From assembly GCA_018920185.1 (NCBI GenBank), contig JAHLMT010000002.1, forward strand, positions 62,001-126,000: a stretch of 64,000 nt of DNA, written 5' to 3'. This document shows, one piece after another, positions 7,148 through 23,094 of this stretch; position 1 is the stretch's first letter, and each line of letters opens with the position of its first letter. Both the position numbers and the translations under genes were made by a program. The stretch is from Candidatus Aenigmatarchaeota archaeon (lineage in GTDB: Archaea > Aenigmatarchaeota > Aenigmatarchaeia > CG10238-14 > SCSR01). The notes under the pieces are model-generated. The model searched no databases and was not told the origin of the DNA. It was given only the letters and a program-made list of their open reading frames with translations.

Positions 7148-7248
7148 TGGGGAGACTGGGATTTGAACCCAGGTTATCCCGTTTAAATTTCGGAGCCCAA
7201 GTCCGAAGGCCTATTGGCTGTTAATAGACCAAGCTAGCCGATCTCCCC
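7148..7248 (-). tRNA. tRNA-Pro (anticodon UGG) with a 15-nt D-loop insertion and about 12 extra nt in the variable region
   Basis: Reverse complement folds as GGGGAGA-UC-GGCU-[AGCUUGGU|CUAUUAACAGCCAAU|A]-GGCC-U-UCGGA-CUUGGGC-UCCGA-[AAUUUAAACGGGAUAAC]-CUGGG-UUCAAAU-CCCAG-UCUCCCC-A; 101 nt as encoded, about 74 without the insertions. Confidence 0.85.
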
Positions 7249-7483
7249 TCAAGAATGATTTACAATCTTTTAATTAAAAGTTTAAAGAGTTATTTAGTTT
7301 CTTTAATACAATTTGATCTTTACAGAATTATTTCTACTTCTCCGGTTCTTATAACCCACATCATCAGGTAATTCTTATCCAAGTTTTAGTTAATTTTTCT
7401 CTTTATACTCCTTTCACTTCCATCTAGAGAGTTTCTAAATACTATTAAATTTAAATAAATTTGGATATAATATAATATTTTTA

Positions 7484-7822
7484 ATGAGTAAAAGACGACT
7501 AAAACCAGGAGAGCTGATGCAAAACCTTTTAGTTTTACTGATAACACCAGTAATTTTCCTAGCTGGTTGTCTCGGCTATAATCCCCCTAAGTACGTCTGT
7601 GCCTGCTTAGCTACTTGTTACGAAAGTGGACAAACGTATGATGTGGTGAATAATGCAGCCATTGGAGGAAATAGCATAGAAGCGACAAAGAACAACTGCC
7701 TAAATGCTGCAAAGCGAGCTTGTCCAAATGGTGAAATAAAAGATTTAACTTGCTCTCCTGTAAAATGGAAAGAGTGGGAAAAAATGAGAGAAAAAGAAAT
7801 AAAAGAAGGGGGAAGGAGATAA
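7484..7822 (+). CDS. small Cys-containing lipoprotein-like/secreted protein
   Basis: Hydrophobic signal NLLVLLITPVIFLAGC (lipobox-like LAGC), then CACLATCYESGQ...NNCLNAAKRACPNGEIKDLTC. Confidence 0.55.
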   Translation: MSKRRLKPGELMQNLLVLLITPVIFLAGCLGYNPPKYVCACLATCYESGQTYDVVNNAAIGGNSIEATKNNCLNAAKRACPNGEIKDLTCSPVKWKEWEKMREKEIKEGGRR

Positions 7823-8198
7823 AAAAAGAAATAAGATAATTTTTATGCTCTAGTTTGTGTCTGAATTACGGCACTTATCTGCTCTATTGGTGTTTTGTGA
7901 TCTACAAAATGGTCAAAACTTTAATGATTTCAATGTAGCCATCTTGACTACCATTCGTCAGAATTTGTAACTTTTGTTTTTTGAGGAAATAAAACCCGTT
8001 GCTATTACAACTATTGTAAAGATAACTTCAAATTTTGGAAATTTCTTTTGTAGCTCATTCAGTATTTTATACAACCTCTTTTCTTGGATCTTTCCGAGTC
8101 TTATAACATTGAACAAAGTCAATATTTTTGAGTTTAATCAACTAAGAGAATCGGGTGAAATACCTATTTCTTCGCTATACTCAAGTACAAAGCTTTAA

Positions 8199-8317
8199 TG
8201 GGGAGACTGGGATTTGAATTCCTGAATGCAGGTTGTTATCCTAACATTTCCCAGGTTGCCACCACCCCAAGGTGGATGCCTTTTGGCTATTAATAGACCA
8301 AGCTAGCAGATCTCCCC
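8199..8317 (-). tRNA. tRNA-Pro (anticodon GGG) with a 15-nt D-loop insertion and a 31-nt T-arm insertion
   Basis: Reverse complement folds as GGGGAGA-UC-UGCU-[AGCUUGGU|CUAUUAAUAGCCAAA|A]-GGCA-U-CCACC-UUGGGGU-GGUGG-CAAC-CUGGG-|AAAUGUUAGGAUAACAACCUGCAUUCAGGAA|-UUCAAAU-CCCAG-UCUCCCC-A; 119 nt as encoded, 73 without the insertions. Confidence 0.75.
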
Positions 8318-8355: not shown

Positions 8356-9654
8356 ATGCCTTTAGAAGAAAAACCAAAAGACTTACTTTCTATAGTCACT
8401 GAAACAATCGTAGGCAGAACGAAAGAAGATTATGAAAAATTTGGAAATATAGCTACAGGATATATCGGTAAGCACATAGTTGGTACTGGCGAAGATGCTC
8501 ACTTAACAACAAAAGTTTTCATTGATTTATTAAAACCTCATGTAATTTTGGTTAGTGGTAAGAGGGGAAGTGGAAAAAGTTATTCAGCTGCAGTAATTTT
8601 AGAAGAATTCTTATTGTTGCCAGAAGAATTTCGTCAAAAAATGGCTTTTGTTGTTTTCGATCCTGTTGGAATTTATTGGAGCATGAAATTTCCTAATGAA
8701 GCTCAATTACAGCTATTAAATAGTTGGCAATTAGAACCAAAGGGGTTTGATAATATTAAAGTTTATGTCCCAGAAAAGCAGCTTGTAGAATATGAGAAGG
8801 CAGAAATTCCAGTAGATGGTACAATTAGCATATCCTTAAGCGATCTAACAGCAGAAGATCTGATACTTGCATTTAATTTAGAAAGAACCAACGAACTTGC
8901 TGTAACTTTGGAAAAGAATTTTAACTCTTTACTGGAATCTAAAAAAGTTTTTGGACTAGATGATCTGATTGATTCTATCACAAGCGATACAAAAGCTAAA
9001 AAAGAAACAAAAGATGCTTTAACAAGTTTGTTATCCGTATTATCACAATGGGGTATAATTAAAAAAGAAGGAACTAAAGTTAATGAATTAATCAAACCTG
9101 GTGAAGTAGTAGTTTTTGATTTCTCCAGATTAAAATCACAAGAAGTAAGGACACTTGTAGCTGGATTGATAACACGAGAAGTGTTGCATCAAAGGATTCT
9201 ATCAAGAAAAGAAGAGGAAATTGCAAAAATTACAGGAGAACAGCTTAAAATAAAATTCCCAATAACATGGTTAATTTTTGAAGAAGCACATAATTTTGTC
9301 CCTTCAGATAGAGATGTCAGTTCAAGCGCAGATATAAAACGAGTTGCGAAAGAAGGACGAGAACCTGGTGTAGGATTGATAGTAATCACACAAATGCCAA
9401 GTAAAATTCATCAGGATATTCTATCACAAACAGATCTAGTAATCTCTTTCCGCCTGACAAGTAAAGACGACTTACAGGCTCTGCACTCTGTAATGCAGAC
9501 TTATGTCCAAGAAGAACTTGAAAAATATCTAAATCGTCTACCACGTATCCCAGGATCAGCCATTTTACTTGATGATAATCTAGAAAAAATATTTACTGTG
9601 AATATAAGACCGCGAATCAGCCATCATGCTGGCGGGACCGCAAGAGTGGTCTAA
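8356..9654 (+). CDS. HerA-like/DUF87 P-loop ATPase
   Basis: Walker A SGKRGSGKSYSAAVILEEF; Walker B WLIFEEAHNFVP; GVGLIVITQMPSKIHQDILSQTD. Confidence 0.9.
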   Translation: MPLEEKPKDLLSIVTETIVGRTKEDYEKFGNIATGYIGKHIVGTGEDAHLTTKVFIDLLKPHVILVSGKRGSGKSYSAAVILEEFLLLPEEFRQKMAFVVFDPVGIYWSMKFPNEAQLQLLNSWQLEPKGFDNIKVYVPEKQLVEYEKAEIPVDGTISISLSDLTAEDLILAFNLERTNELAVTLEKNFNSLLESKKVFGLDDLIDSITSDTKAKKETKDALTSLLSVLSQWGIIKKEGTKVNELIKPGEVVVFDFSRLKSQEVRTLVAGLITREVLHQRILSRKEEEIAKITGEQLKIKFPITWLIFEEAHNFVPSDRDVSSSADIKRVAKEGREPGVGLIVITQMPSKIHQDILSQTDLVISFRLTSKDDLQALHSVMQTYVQEELEKYLNRLPRIPGSAILLDDNLEKIFTVNIRPRISHHAGGTARVV

Positions 9655-15621: not shown

Positions 15622-18600
15622 ATGGATAGTTTAGGACAAAAAGTTCAGCTTGTCGGTGAACAGAAAGGATTGAAAATACCAAGATTATTTACAAAATCTG
15701 GAGAAAATGTTTATAATACTTGTGAATGGGAAAAAAGAACTTCGATAATTAAAAACCCTGATGGTTCGATTGTATTTCAAATGAATAATGTTGAAGTTCC
15801 AAAGTTTTGGTCACAAACTGCAACAGATATCCTAGCACAGAAATACTTCAGAAAAAAAGGAGTCCCTCAGTTCGATGATAAAGGAAATCCAATTCTAGAT
15901 GCAAACGGTCAACAAGTTCTCGGTAGTGAAACATCATTAAAACAAGTTGTTCACAGACTTGCGGGGTGTTGGACATGGTGGGGAAAGAAATACAATTATT
16001 TTGCAACAGAGGAAGATGCCCAAGCATTTTATGATGAAGTTGCTTACATGCTTTTACATCAGTTTGCAGCTCCTAACTCACCTCAGTGGTTTAATACAGG
16101 ATTAAATTTTGCTTACGGAATTACAGGTTCACCCCAAGGACATTGGTATGTAGATCCTGATACAAAAGAATTGACACAAGCGAAAGATGCTTATTCACAT
16201 ATTCAAGCGCATGCATGTTTTATTCAACCAGTAAAAGATGATTTAGTAAATGAGGGAGGTATTTTAGATTTGGCTGTCAGGGAAGCAAGAATCTTCAAAT
16301 ATGGAAGTGGATGCACTTCAGAGAATTCGTATGTTTATACAGATAAATTCGGTCTGATAAAAATAAGTGAGTTATTTGAAAAGTTTAAGCATTTAGGAAT
16401 TAATGATTTTGATGGTAAAGGTAAATTTATTGATATATCCAATTTGGGTATTCATACTATTTCTATGAATAAAGACGGAGTTCTAGAAAAAGATTTGATA
16501 GAAAAGATTTGGCAATACGACGTTTCAAAAGAAGACAAGTTAAAAGTTTATTTATCTAACGGTAGTAGAGTTGTAGTTTCCTCGTGGCACCCATTTCTTG
16601 TTTGGAACGGCGAAACTATAGAAGAAAAAAGAGCAGACGAACTTAAAAGAGGGGATGTTGTTTTATCATCAAATTCTTCAATTAAAAATATCTTGCCAGA
16701 AGAGTCTATAACCATAGAATGGAGATCAAAATACAAAAGAATAGAAAATCATTCTATAGAACTAGATAAAGATCTAGCATGGTTAATTGGATATTTCATA
16801 GGCGATGGTTCTATTGATAAGAGAAAATACAAAATAAAAGGCAAGTTATACGAAGATCTTAGGTTGAGATTTTCTGGTGAAACGATAACAAGCTTAAAAA
16901 AAGCTAAGAAAATTATAAAAGAAAAATTCGGAGATTATAGTAGAATAGTAAGTGATAAGAGAAAGAATAGTTTTATTTTAAATTGTGTGGGTAGAAAAGC
17001 TACAAGCTTTTTCGTGAATATAACAAAATCGAATAAAACATATTCAATTGGATTACCCGAATTCATTTTAAAATCCAACCTCACAATCATTTATTCTTTT
17101 CTAGCTGGTTTAATTGATTCGGATGGTTATGTCACCAAAGATGGGAAAACGAAATACGCAACCACCTCTAAACTACTAGCAGAAAAACTTTCTGTATTAA
17201 GTTCGCTACTGGGTTTAGGTGGCGGTATAGTTAAAAATGGAAACACTTATACAGTAACCTTAATTGCTAAATCTAATTCACCAGAAATAATGAAAATTCT
17301 AATAAATCTCTCTAATGTGGATAGAAGAACAAGACTTAACAATTTTTTAATGGACAACCGTAGAAAGTGTTTTACAATGCCACTATCAGATGAAATGTTT
17401 GGTCAAATATTCAATGCTCCGACAAACACATCTGGATGGCTTTCTTATTCAATGGGTTTATCTACTTTCTCTTTGAGTAGGCTGAAATACGAAGGTGTGG
17501 TTAACCCTGTAAAACAGAATAGAATGTTATTTGAAGTTGATAAAACAGAAACTTCAGAATTTCTGAAAAGAATTAGTGAATCTGCAACTTTTGTAGAATC
17601 TGTAGAGAAAATAGATGACGATCCTGAATTTTTTGATTTAACAGTCAAAAAGAATAACAATTATCTTGCAGGTGAACATGGATTAGTTATAATTCACAAC
17701 ACAGGAACAAACTTCTCAACACTAAGAGCTAAAGGTGAGCCGCTATCGGGTGGCGGAACTTCTAGCGGAGTAATGTCATTCTTAAAAATTTATGACACAA
17801 TAGCTGGCTCAATTAAAAGCGGTGGTACGACTCGTCGTGCTGCAAAAATGGTTATTTTAAATATAGATCACCCAGAGATAGAAGCATTCATAAGATGGAA
17901 AGCAGATGAAGAGAAAAAGTTTGCTGCATTAGTTAGTGCTGGGTTAGTTGATGGATATAGTGTTGAATCGGCAGGTGAACATGTGTTCGGTCAGAATTCT
18001 AATAATTCCGTTCGAGTTACTAATGATTTCATGAAAGCTGTCATAGAAGATAAAGATTGGAACTTAACTTGGAGAACAGATGGTAGAGTTGTAAAAACAG
18101 TTAAAGCTAGATACTTGTGGGACATGATTGCACAAGCTGCATGGGAATGTGCCGACCCTGGATTGCAATTTGATACAACATACAATGAGTGGCATACATC
18201 ACCCGCTTCAGGTAGAATAAATGCAACTAATCCCTGTTCCGAATTTGCCTATCTTGATAATTCTGCCTGCAATCTTGCATCATTAAATTTGGTAAAATTC
18301 TTAGAGAACGGGATATTCAATGTAGATGCATTCAAACATGCTGTCAGGTTATGGACAATTGTTCTTGAAATCTCGATTCTAATGGCTCAATTTCCGAGCA
18401 AAGAAATCGCCGAGGTAACTTATAAAACAAGAAGCCTAGGTTTAGGATATACCAACTTAGGTTCACTCTTAATGAGATTAGGAATCCCTTACGATTCTGA
18501 TAAAGCAAGAGCTATTGCTGCAGCCATAACAGCAATAATGACTGGTGAAACCTATGCAACATCTGCTGAACTCGCAAGTTTTCTTGGTCCATTCGAGGAA

Positions 18601-20187
18601 TTTGAGAAGAACAGAGAACACATGCTAAGAGTAATTAGAAATCATAGAAGAGTTGTTTACAATGCTCCGACAGAAGAATACGAAGGTTTGAGCATAATCC
18701 CACCAGGTATTGATCACACGCATTGTCCGGATTATCTTTTGAAAGCCGCTATCGAATGTTGGGATAGAGCATTGTTATTAGGTGAAAAGTACGGATATAG
18801 AAATGCTCAAGCAACTCTAATCGCACCAACAGGAACTATAAGCTTTGTAATGGACGCAGATACAACTGGAGTTGAACCTGATTTTGCTCTAGTTAAATTC
18901 AAAAAATTAGTTGGTGGTGGTTATTTCAAAATTGTTAACCAAAGTGTAGCACCGGCACTGAGAACTCTAGGTTATACAGAAGAACAGATAAAAGATATTA
19001 TAAGATACCTCGTCGGTACCAATAGATTCGAAGGTGCACCTTACATCAACACTTTTACTTTAAAAAGGAAAGGATTTACAGATGAGGATATAATTAAAAT
19101 GGAAAATTTATTGCCAAGTGCTTTAGATTTATCTTTTGTTTTTAATGTCAATGTTCTCGGTAAAGAGTGTTTGGAAAGATTGGGATTCAAAGAATCTCAA
19201 TATTCTTCATCAGATTTCAATTTATTGAAAGCTTTAGGTTTTAGAGATGATGAAATAGATGCTGCAACAGAATTCATTTGTGGAGCACAAACCATCGAAG
19301 GCGCACCACACTTGAAAATTGAACATTATCCTGTTTTTGATTGCGCTGTTAAATGTGGAAAGAAAGGTACGAGATATATTGATTATATGGCTCATGTTTA
19401 TATGATGGCTGCGATTCAACCTTTGCTTTCTGGAAGTATAAGCAAGACAATTAACATGCCTAATCACGCTACTGTTGAAGACATACAAAAAGTTTACCTA
19501 GAATCGTGGAAACTTGGATTAAAATCTTTGGCTATATATCGTGATGGTAGCAAAATTATTCAACCATTATCTGTATTCAAAGAAAAGAAAGAAGAGTTCA
19601 AACCTGTTAGAAGAAGATTGCCAGCTGAAAGACAAGCCATCGCCCATAAGTTCAGGGTTGGTAATCAAGAAGGTTATCTGCACGTAGGATTGTTTGAAGA
19701 TGGTTCTCCAGGAGAATTGTTTGTTACAATTGCTAAACAAGGTAGCACCTTAGCTGGTTTAATGGATGCATTTGCATTGACAGTTTCAATTAGTTTGCAG
19801 TATGGTGTTCCATTGAAGGTTTTAGTGAGTAAGTTCATCAACACAAGATTCGAGCCTATGGGGTGGACTGATAATCCTGAGATACCAATTGCCAAATCTA
19901 TTATGGATTATATTTTCAGGTGGATGGCATTCAAATTCTTGACAAAGGAAGATTTGAAAGAGTTGGGGCTATTGAATAGTGAGCATGTCGTTATTGCTAA
20001 CGAGAAACCAGAAGAAGTGGAAAATCAGACTCAGGATATAGCTAAATTGTCTTTGTTTACTAGAAAAGAAACAGATTCTGATACGAGTGGAGATGCACCT
20101 GCATGCCACGAATGTGGAAGCATGATGGTTAGAAGCGGTTCTTGCTATGTTTGCACTTCTTGCGGAGCTACTAGCGGGTGTTCTTGA
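15622..20187 (+). CDS. nrdJ: adenosylcobalamin-dependent ribonucleotide reductase (class II), intein-containing
   Basis: FAAPNSPQWFNTGLNFAYG, EARIFKYGSG|intein|TGTNFSTLRAKGEPLSGGGTSSG, NPCSEFAYLDNSACNLASLNL, APTGTISFVMDADTTGVEP; C-terminal CxxC-rich tail CHECGSMMVRSGSCYVCTSCGATSGCS. Confidence 0.96.
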   Translation: MDSLGQKVQLVGEQKGLKIPRLFTKSGENVYNTCEWEKRTSIIKNPDGSIVFQMNNVEVPKFWSQTATDILAQKYFRKKGVPQFDDKGNPILDANGQQVLGSETSLKQVVHRLAGCWTWWGKKYNYFATEEDAQAFYDEVAYMLLHQFAAPNSPQWFNTGLNFAYGITGSPQGHWYVDPDTKELTQAKDAYSHIQAHACFIQPVKDDLVNEGGILDLAVREARIFKYGSGCTSENSYVYTDKFGLIKISELFEKFKHLGINDFDGKGKFIDISNLGIHTISMNKDGVLEKDLIEKIWQYDVSKEDKLKVYLSNGSRVVVSSWHPFLVWNGETIEEKRADELKRGDVVLSSNSSIKNILPEESITIEWRSKYKRIENHSIELDKDLAWLIGYFIGDGSIDKRKYKIKGKLYEDLRLRFSGETITSLKKAKKIIKEKFGDYSRIVSDKRKNSFILNCVGRKATSFFVNITKSNKTYSIGLPEFILKSNLTIIYSFLAGLIDSDGYVTKDGKTKYATTSKLLAEKLSVLSSLLGLGGGIVKNGNTYTVTLIAKSNSPEIMKILINLSNVDRRTRLNNFLMDNRRKCFTMPLSDEMFGQIFNAPTNTSGWLSYSMGLSTFSLSRLKYEGVVNPVKQNRMLFEVDKTETSEFLKRISESATFVESVEKIDDDPEFFDLTVKKNNNYLAGEHGLVIIHNTGTNFSTLRAKGEPLSGGGTSSGVMSFLKIYDTIAGSIKSGGTTRRAAKMVILNIDHPEIEAFIRWKADEEKKFAALVSAGLVDGYSVESAGEHVFGQNSNNSVRVTNDFMKAVIEDKDWNLTWRTDGRVVKTVKARYLWDMIAQAAWECADPGLQFDTTYNEWHTSPASGRINATNPCSEFAYLDNSACNLASLNLVKFLENGIFNVDAFKHAVRLWTIVLEISILMAQFPSKEIAEVTYKTRSLGLGYTNLGSLLMRLGIPYDSDKARAIAAAITAIMTGETYATSAELASFLGPFEEFEKNREHMLRVIRNHRRVVYNAPTEEYEGLSIIPPGIDHTHCPDYLLKAAIECWDRALLLGEKYGYRNAQATLIAPTGTISFVMDADTTGVEPDFALVKFKKLVGGGYFKIVNQSVAPALRTLGYTEEQIKDIIRYLVGTNRFEGAPYINTFTLKRKGFTDEDIIKMENLLPSALDLSFVFNVNVLGKECLERLGFKESQYSSSDFNLLKALGFRDDEIDAATEFICGAQTIEGAPHLKIEHYPVFDCAVKCGKKGTRYIDYMAHVYMMAAIQPLLSGSISKTINMPNHATVEDIQKVYLESWKLGLKSLAIYRDGSKIIQPLSVFKEKKEEFKPVRRRLPAERQAIAHKFRVGNQEGYLHVGLFEDGSPGELFVTIAKQGSTLAGLMDAFALTVSISLQYGVPLKVLVSKFINTRFEPMGWTDNPEIPIAKSIMDYIFRWMAFKFLTKEDLKELGLLNSEHVVIANEKPEEVENQTQDIAKLSLFTRKETDSDTSGDAPACHECGSMMVRSGSCYVCTSCGATSGCS
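16312..17700 (+). mobile_element. in-frame intein (463 aa) with LAGLIDADG homing endonuclease domain, inserted in nrdJ
   Basis: Starts Cys (CTSENSYVYTDKFGLIKISELF), block B-like SSWHPFLVWNGETIEEKRADELKRGD, two DOD motifs (LAWLIGYFIGDGSID; FLAGLIDSDGYVT), ends NYLAGEHGLVIIHN followed by extein Thr. Confidence 0.95.
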
Positions 20188-20988: not shown

Positions 20989-23094
20989 ATGCCTATTTCT
21001 AAAGTCAGAAAGCGAGATGGCAGGTTAGAAGAATTTAATCCACAGAAAATAACTAATGCAATATTAAAGGCTTTACGAGCAACAAAACAAGGAAATAAAA
21101 AATCAGCTGAAAAATTATCACACCAAGTGGTTAATGAGCTAGAAAAAATTTATTCTGGAAAAATCCCCTCAGTTGAAAATATCCAAGACATTGTGGAAGA
21201 AATTTTGATTAAAAATAAATTAGTTAAGACAGCAAAAGCTTATATCCTATACAGACAAAGAAGAAAAGAAGTTAGAGAAATAAAAGAATTTTTCGGAGTT
21301 AAAGATGATCTGAAACTTGGGATAAATGCAATAAAAGTTTTGCAGAGAAGATATCTAGCGCGAGACGAAAATGGAAATGTCATTGAAACACCTTCACAAC
21401 TTTTTAAACGAGTAGCAAAAGCTATTGCATCAGTTGAAAAACAATACGGGAAAAGCGAAAAAGAAATCAAAAAAATAGAAGAACAGTTCTATCACATGAT
21501 GGCAAATCAAGAATTTATGCCCAATACACCATGCTTAGTTAATGCGGGTAGACCTTTGGGTCAGTTAGCTGCTTGTTTTGTGATTCCTGTGGAAGATTCA
21601 TTAGAAAGTATATTCGATGCATTGAAATTAACGGCGATTATTCATAAGAGTGGCGGAGGGACGGGATATAATTTCTCACACTTAAGACCAACTGGTGATG
21701 TTGTTAAAACTACAGGCGGCGTTGCTAGTGGTCCCGTTTCTTTTATGAAAATTTTTGATGAAGCTACAAATCAAATAAAACAAGGCGGCGTAAGACGCGG
21801 CGCTAATATGGGAATTTTAAATGTAGATCATCCTGATATTTTAGAATTCATAACAGTTAAATCTGATGGGAAAACTTTATCTAACTTTAATATTTCTGTT
21901 GCTGTTACTGACGAATTTATGAAAGCTGTTGAAAAAAATAAAGAGTACCAGTTGATTAATCCGAGAACTGGAAAAGTTGTAAAGAGATTAAATGCAAGTG
22001 AAGTTTTTGATTTGATTGTTTACAATGCATGGAAAACGGGTGACCCTGGATTAATATTTCTGGACGAAATTAACAGAAAGAATCCTACAGCTCATCTAGG
22101 AAAAATTGAAAGTACTAATCCATGTGGAGAACAGCCTTTGCATCCTTATGAAGAATGTGATTTGGGCTCGATAAATGTTTCAAAACTTGTTAAAAATAAA
22201 AAGATTAATTGGAAAAGATTAAAAGAATTGGTTTGGTTGGGTGTCCGTTTTCTGGATAACATAATAGATGCAAATAAATATCCAGATAAAAGAATTGAAG
22301 AAACTTCTAAAGCCAACAGACGAATAGGTTTAGGAGTAATGGGATTTGCCGAGTTTTTGATAAAGCTAGGCATACCTTACAATTCAGAAAAAGCTCTAAA
22401 AGCTGCAGAAAAATTAATGAAATTTATTGAAAAAGAAGCTGATGAAGCATCTCAACAATTAGGAAAAGAAAAGGGAAACTTCCCTAATTTCAAAGGAAGC
22501 CTATGGGATAAGAAAGGCTATAAATATAGAAGAAACGCAACTGTGACAACAATCGCACCTACAGGAACTATTAGTATCCTCGCTGGATGCTCTAGTGGAA
22601 TAGAACCGCTTTTTGCTGTAGCATTTGTCCGCAATGTTATGGAAGGTACACGATTGTTAGAAGTTACACCAACATTTGAAGAGATAGCTAGAAAAAGAAA
22701 ATTTTATTCTTCAGAGTTGTTAGCGAAAATTGCTGAAACTGGTAGTGTGCAAAATATTCCTGAAGTTCCGGAAGATGTGAAGAAGCTTTTTGTTACCGCT
22801 TTAGATATAGAACCAGAATGGCATGTGAGAATGCAAGCCACATTTCAACGTTTTACAGAAAATGCAGTTAGCAAGACTGTTAACCTAAGAGAAGATGCTA
22901 CTCCCGAAGATGTTAGGAAAGCTTACATGTTAGCATGGAAGTTGAAGTGCAAGGGAATAACTGTTTATCGCTACGGTAGTAAGGAAAATCAAGTTCTGAC
23001 TATCGGAAGCTTGGAAAAAGAATTGGGAGAAAAACATGTTATTGCAGAATCAGAATTTGCTGGTGGATGTGCGGGAATTACTTGTCCTCATTAA
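20989..23094 (+). CDS. adenosylcobalamin-dependent ribonucleotide reductase (class II), second copy with N-terminal ATP-cone
   Basis: ATP-cone KVRKRDGRLEEFNPQKITNAILKAL; MPNTPCLVNAGRPLGQLAACFVIPV; HKSGGGTGYNFSHLRP; ESTNPCGEQPLHPYEECDLGSIN; APTGTISILAGCSSGIEP. Confidence 0.93.
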   Translation: MPISKVRKRDGRLEEFNPQKITNAILKALRATKQGNKKSAEKLSHQVVNELEKIYSGKIPSVENIQDIVEEILIKNKLVKTAKAYILYRQRRKEVREIKEFFGVKDDLKLGINAIKVLQRRYLARDENGNVIETPSQLFKRVAKAIASVEKQYGKSEKEIKKIEEQFYHMMANQEFMPNTPCLVNAGRPLGQLAACFVIPVEDSLESIFDALKLTAIIHKSGGGTGYNFSHLRPTGDVVKTTGGVASGPVSFMKIFDEATNQIKQGGVRRGANMGILNVDHPDILEFITVKSDGKTLSNFNISVAVTDEFMKAVEKNKEYQLINPRTGKVVKRLNASEVFDLIVYNAWKTGDPGLIFLDEINRKNPTAHLGKIESTNPCGEQPLHPYEECDLGSINVSKLVKNKKINWKRLKELVWLGVRFLDNIIDANKYPDKRIEETSKANRRIGLGVMGFAEFLIKLGIPYNSEKALKAAEKLMKFIEKEADEASQQLGKEKGNFPNFKGSLWDKKGYKYRRNATVTTIAPTGTISILAGCSSGIEPLFAVAFVRNVMEGTRLLEVTPTFEEIARKRKFYSSELLAKIAETGSVQNIPEVPEDVKKLFVTALDIEPEWHVRMQATFQRFTENAVSKTVNLREDATPEDVRKAYMLAWKLKCKGITVYRYGSKENQVLTIGSLEKELGEKHVIAESEFAGGCAGITCPH

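Follow-up and report, generated by a model that had tools for sequence, protein, structure and literature searches.

Two tRNA-Pro genes with two predicted bulge-helix-bulge introns each in a genome of the Aenigmatarchaeota

Transfer RNA genes interrupted by multiple non-canonical introns of the bulge-helix-bulge (BHB) type are known from the Thermoproteales, Nanoarchaeum equitans and ARMAN. The Thermoproteales average 0.84 introns per tRNA gene, with 71 introns in 46 genes of P. calidifontis (PMC8450103), and the tRNA-Pro(UGG) of Pyrobaculum islandicum holds introns at 25/26 and 56/57 in addition to the canonical site, 20/21, 45/46 and 53/54 also being documented archaeal tRNA intron sites (PMC4090602). 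Multi-intron tRNA genes are found alongside an epsilon2 splicing endonuclease (EndA) in ARMAN-1 and ARMAN-2, and alongside an (alpha-beta)2 EndA in N. equitans (PMC4033280, PMC12397907). For the Aenigmatarchaeota, no description of tRNA introns was found in the open-access literature, subscription papers lying outside the search. Here, we analysed a 64-kb stretch of DNA (the window) from a draft genome of this phylum (643 kb, 8 contigs, 92.5% complete), in which two minus-strand tRNA-Pro genes, with the anticodons UGG and GGG, each appear to carry two such introns.

The window genome resembles the Thermoproteales in its short D-arm, variable-region and T-arm introns, in its heavy intron load and in the presence of similar introns in different tRNA genes. 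It differs from them by its affiliation to a DPANN phylum and by a one-gene EndA of 190 aa, as opposed to their (alpha-beta)2 enzyme. Multiple tRNA introns are shared with ARMAN-2, whose EndA has its ASL near the same position as the lysine loop found here, and with N. equitans, whose NEQ205 has the same insertion before the catalytic histidine; unlike the enzymes of both, the EndA described here is a single short subunit with an alpha4-like layout. The kind of intron is known, and what the predicted introns would add is the lineage.

Predicted introns and their boundaries

Neither ARAGORN nor Rfam at its gathering threshold returned a single tRNA call in the whole window, both tools being silent on the two tRNA-Pro genes because each gene is interrupted twice. 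At a relaxed threshold, the UGG gene surfaced among the weaker Rfam matches as a tRNA-Sec-like hit of 22.7 bits, and the GGG gene was located by inspection. Both stand where a preliminary description of the window, made from the sequence alone, had placed two insert-bearing tRNA-Pro genes (Table 1), and the D-stem difference that it reported between them (GGC:GCC in UGG, TGC:GCA in GGG) is real. We consider it very probable that these are functional genes with two short, protein-spliced BHB-type introns each, namely a D-loop intron in both, a variable-region intron in UGG and an intron at 53/54 in GGG.

Table 1. Coordinates of the two tRNA-Pro genes, their predicted introns and associated genes (window positions unless stated otherwise)
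Feature	Position	Strand	Details
tRNA-Pro(UGG) gene	7148..7248	-	101 nt unspliced, 75 nt predicted mature, CCA not encoded
UGG D-loop intron (predicted) ATTAACAGCCAAT	7213..7225	-	13 nt, 20b/21 junction, central helix UGGU:GCCA
UGG variable-region intron (predicted) ATTTAAACGGGAT	7176..7188	-	13 nt, about 45/46, central helix UCCG:CGGG
tRNA-Pro(GGG) gene	8199..8317	-	119 nt unspliced, 75 nt predicted mature
GGG D-loop intron (predicted) ATTAATAGCCAAA	8282..8294	-	13 nt, 20b/21 junction, central helix UGGU:GCCA
GGG T-arm intron (predicted) AAATGTTAGGATAACAACCTGCATTCAGGAA	8219..8249	-	31 nt, 53/54, central helix CCUG:CAGG, inner helix AAUG:CAUU (HBh' type)
Divergent HerA-like ATPase gene	8356..9654	+	outside the tRNA; synteny marker for the GGG locus
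EndA gene, 189 aa	L029:1477-2043 = G000:C3:24471-25037	-	only EndA gene found in the genome

Boundaries were sought with a purpose-built scorer of mature tRNAs, coupled to a search for intron sets satisfying a BHB rule, which requires a helix of four pairs between exon and intron, with cuts 2 nt 3' of each strand. Removal of the predicted introns yields canonical tRNAs with every stem paired and the same mature score (32.85) for both genes, and leaves the junctions AGCUUGGUCUA in the D-loops, AAAC in the UGG variable region and CUGGGUUCAAAU in the GGG T-arm. In relatives, many tRNA-Pro genes that are intronless or interrupted in another way have the first of these as their D-loop, and AAAC is likewise found in L059, an equivalent of the UGG variable region without intron. 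When the BHB rule was dropped and the mature fold alone was scored, the same placements were still among the best; the predicted boundaries are fixed to within sliding ambiguity. The two D-loop introns are identical at 11 of 13 positions. The D-loop insert that the preliminary description saw in both genes is thus present, its proposed 15 nt being probably 2 nt too wide; its variable-region insert of about 12 nt is also there, at 13 nt, and the 31 nt that it counted between CTGGG and TTCAAAT in the GGG gene were exact.

As to processing, cleavage, splicing order and ligation are what we infer: a BHB, hBH or HBh' motif would arise by pairing of four intron nucleotides with the four exon nucleotides that immediately precede the 5' cut, an EndA-type endonuclease would cut 2 nt 3' of each central-helix strand, and RtcB would ligate the exons.

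Two other readings of the inserts were rejected. A first solver run took the 17-nt variable region of UGG for a class II arm, and such arms were permitted only for Leu and Ser anticodons in the final solver. The UGG variable-region insert and the GGG T-arm insert both hold GGATAAC, and were considered as one copied intron; by eye, the remainder is mismatched.

Among the alternatives, the one that survives best accepts the introns and lengthens the D-loop intron to 15 nt, with cuts TTGGT^C and T^AGG leaving AGCUUGGUA. We give it a small chance: AGCUUGGUA does occur in the intronless tRNA-Pro(CGG) of a relative (L067), whereas the syntenic and most intronless relatives carry AGCUUGGUCUA, AGCUUGGUA being absent from the syntenic orthologues, and by eye the 15-nt cuts give no paired four-nucleotide helix at the standard offset, as the 13-nt cuts do.

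All four junction pairs of the two genes are compatible with a BHB central helix, in its strict or relaxed (hBH/HBh') form, and a good tRNA was recovered at the expected cut offset (2,2) in 14 of 27 interrupted genes of the genome, against 0-7 for off-diagonal offsets. Several observations nevertheless weigh against two spliced introns per gene. The diagonal offsets (1,1) and (3,3) nearly equal (2,2), with 12 and 11 of 27, because of longer helices and sliding. With sliding and a length freedom of +/-2 nt allowed, shuffled introns satisfied the rule in 35% and 30% of cases for the two D-loop introns, as compared with 7.4% for the variable-region intron and 2.4% for the T-arm intron. In whole precursors, RNAfold gave the UGG variable-region helix a probability of only about 0.04, so that this helix would depend on the prior removal of another intron or on folding induced by the enzyme; the D-loop central helix reached 0.69-0.98 for three of four pairs, and the T-arm central helix 0.39. 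The tRNA scoring scheme is moreover our own, and the EndA of the genome is without its catalytic lysine, as detailed below. By itself, the BHB motif is supportive, not decisive, and it is weak for the D-loop introns; the high rates of the shuffled D-loop introns are the reason why the comparison of orthologues was relied upon.

Orthologous tRNA-Pro genes in relatives

The HerA-like gene, named from a reading of its translation only, no family search having been made, adjoins the GGG locus in seven relatives (G001, G005, G006, G012, G013, G014 and G016), and the region upstream of the GGG gene, which contains TATATAA, is conserved with G006. At this single syntenic position, the orthologues are intronless in G006 and G016, have one 16-nt variable-region intron in G012, a D-loop intron at a different site together with a variable-region intron in G001, and other inserts, read by eye, in G013 and G014. 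The orthologue of G005, a member of the same genus, has a single 12-nt insert in the anticodon loop, which fails the strict four-pair rule; its mature tRNA is identical to the one predicted for the window at 74 of 75 positions, and the two genes are interrupted at different sites. The D-loop intron of the window GGG gene is absent from the syntenic orthologues of G005, G006, G012 and G016, and its T-arm intron from the syntenic orthologues as well.

For the UGG gene, the D-loop site is also occupied in G001 (L058, genus g2), by 12 nt as read by eye, the solver having preferred a near-equal alternative, and most other tRNA-Pro genes of the family lack the intron. The variable-region intron recurs in L058 at the same site and with the same 13 nt, its helix being GCUC:GAGC versus UCCG:CGGG in the window; this predicted helix covaries between genera, with complementarity kept. 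A check of relatives for the same insertions, as the preliminary description had advised, thus recovered both UGG sites in L058 and neither GGG insert in the syntenic orthologues. On the sequences compared, this comparative evidence is decisive for introns. The shared D-loop intron sits at one site: UGG genes from two genera have it there, and of the GGG orthologues examined only that of the window genome does. On the simplest reading, the intron is older in UGG, and gene conversion or intron transposition would have brought a copy of it to GGG.

The same comparison bears on whether the inserts are retained in the mature tRNAs, enlarging the D-arm, the variable loop and the T-arm, which is very improbable. 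An unusual retained D-arm had been the other possibility of the preliminary description, and the D-stem does still pair around the long loop; orthologues of the same genus without the insert contradict it, the insert sites vary between relatives, and 31 nt between T-stem and T-loop would abolish the contacts between T-loop and D-loop. Least probable of all is that one or both genes are pseudogenes, as the preliminary description allowed should a second GGG gene exist, with intact copies in the 7% missing from an incomplete draft of 8 contigs: the 92.5%-complete genome yielded no second tRNA-Pro(UGG) or tRNA-Pro(GGG) gene, the exons are undamaged, pair in every stem and correspond one-for-one to the orthologues, and the majority of the other tRNA genes are likewise interrupted. 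Two BHB-type introns per gene, including the shared D-loop intron, therefore stand as the best-supported explanation, in which the junctions fit, the cloverleaf is restored and the relatives differ.

A partial 5' tRNA-Pro-like sequence (GGGTCGTCTGCTAGCTTGGTCTAGGCATCCA) without visible 3' half was also noticed in G005 (L060, about 700-900), and could be a decayed copy or a split gene.

A splicing endonuclease without the catalytic lysine

The genome yielded a single gene each for EndA and RtcB. The EndA protein, 83% identical to its nearest named relatives (Candidatus Aenigmatarchaeota), has N- and C-terminal domains and matches the alpha4 enzyme of M. jannaschii (1a79) over nearly its full length. 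The gaps in the other alignments with the M. jannaschii sequence are the same as those in the match to 1a79. A single EndA gene above the cut-off was recorded in 16 of the 17 family genomes, and two of these 16 gave an extra sub-threshold match; the protein measures 187-190 aa where its start could be placed. Across the Aenigmatarchaeota, PF01974 matches revealed a single 190-aa gene, adjacent two-gene sets and proteins of about 365 aa or about 400 aa (365-435), and some genomes hold the 190-aa and 400-aa forms together. The EndA gene of the window genome is immediately preceded, on the same strand, by a tRNA-Phe gene with two introns.

Two of the catalytic residues, Tyr119 and His135, are kept, and the lysine is replaced by Ala166 in 80 of 80 aligned relatives, a count that is partly due to selection, the retrieval patterns having held the motif; the family set, chosen otherwise, agrees. 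No lysine stands at the position of MJ K156 and ARMAN-2 K282. Lys130 is, with Tyr119 and His135, invariant in the 80 relatives, and the insertion GYGKPLPEEE carries a lysine (Lys34) present in 75 of them and aligned near ARMAN-2 Lys161. The further insertion, before the catalytic histidine, is the one shared with NEQ205. CSL and ASL loops accompany diverse introns (PMC12397907). The endonuclease of broad specificity that the preliminary description suggested looking for thus has a candidate by its CSL/ASL-like loop, and the usual catalytic lysine is what it lacks. This EndA would be the enzyme cutting the introns described here, and it is possible that a second subunit escaped detection.

Genome-wide interruption and putative intron-borne wobble guides

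Studied as stretches around tRNA matches, the 40 tRNA loci found in the genome comprise 28 above the Rfam cut-off, weaker Rfam matches (including UGG), the GGG gene and the partial or weak Leu loci L186-L188. Inserts were found in 29 of them, many with two, which amounts to at least 40 introns, five loci being incompletely solved (L017, L027, L034, L035 and L187). This load is at or above the Thermoproteales average of 0.84 per gene (PMC8450103). One class II (Ser/Leu-like) tRNA with a T-loop intron, L033 (G000:C3:1321), has a 7-nt anticodon loop, CUUUCGA, that would give UUC, making its identity ambiguous.

Introns at the canonical position of several tRNAs hold a half-motif of D'-C' type, TTGA-N3-7-GATGA, shortly before the 3' splice site. 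It was matched 36 times in the 17 family genomes, where the reversed pattern was matched once, and further matches are numerous in the order as a whole. The loci concerned are L016, L017, L034, L035, L036 and L188 in the window genome and L190-L219 in the family. Immediately 5' of TTGA lies a stretch antisense to the anticodon loop of the same tRNA, its fifth nucleotide facing position 34; at 28 of 31 sites, the pairing amounts to 5 of 6. At a pairing of at least 5.5, 22 sites were counted, versus means of 5.8 when guides were swapped between loci and 0.5 when they were shuffled. The targets are Met, Leu(CAA, UAA), Lys(UUU), Trp, Glu(UUC) and Arg(UCU), to which Gln(UUG) is added by eye, and a fibrillarin gene is present. 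These introns are apparent guides for wobble 2'-O-methylation of their own tRNA. That the complementarity would merely be a BHB central helix is disfavoured, the antisense stretch lying some 20 nt before the 3' splice site. The introns of the two window tRNA-Pro genes are without the D'-C' motif.

The euryarchaeal tRNA-Trp intron likewise bears a 2'-O-methylation guide for nucleotide 34 (PMC7994747); here, by contrast, the introns that bear a D'-C' half-motif belong to tRNAs for Met, Leu, Lys, Trp, Glu, Gln and Arg. Tentatively, and with somewhat more doubt than confidence, we propose that an alpha4-like, single-gene EndA serves this heavily interrupted tRNA set, having lost the catalytic lysine that the characterised EndA types conserve, and uses Lys34 of the CSL/ASL-like loop or Lys130, adjacent to the catalytic histidine, for cutting of broad specificity, and that the intron load may partly be kept because introns at the canonical position also act as D'/C'-box guides for methylation of the wobble nucleotide in their own tRNA.

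Elsewhere in the window, a ribonucleotide reductase-like open reading frame (ORF) of 1521 aa (15622-20187, plus strand) shows by eye an in-frame intein-like insertion, from GSGCTSEN to VIIHNTGTN, and is followed by a second such ORF at 20989-23094.

With these genes, a DPANN phylum would be added to the few archaeal groups in which tRNA genes are interrupted more than once, and close relatives display differing intron sets at a single orthologous locus. Genes interrupted in this way escape standard tRNA finders, which bears on statements of completeness and codon usage for such genomes. The EndA without catalytic lysine and the putative wobble guides may matter more than the tRNA-Pro introns themselves: the enzyme offers a natural test of whether a lysine of the CSL/ASL loop can replace the catalytic one, and the guides provide one possible reason for the persistence of tRNA introns.
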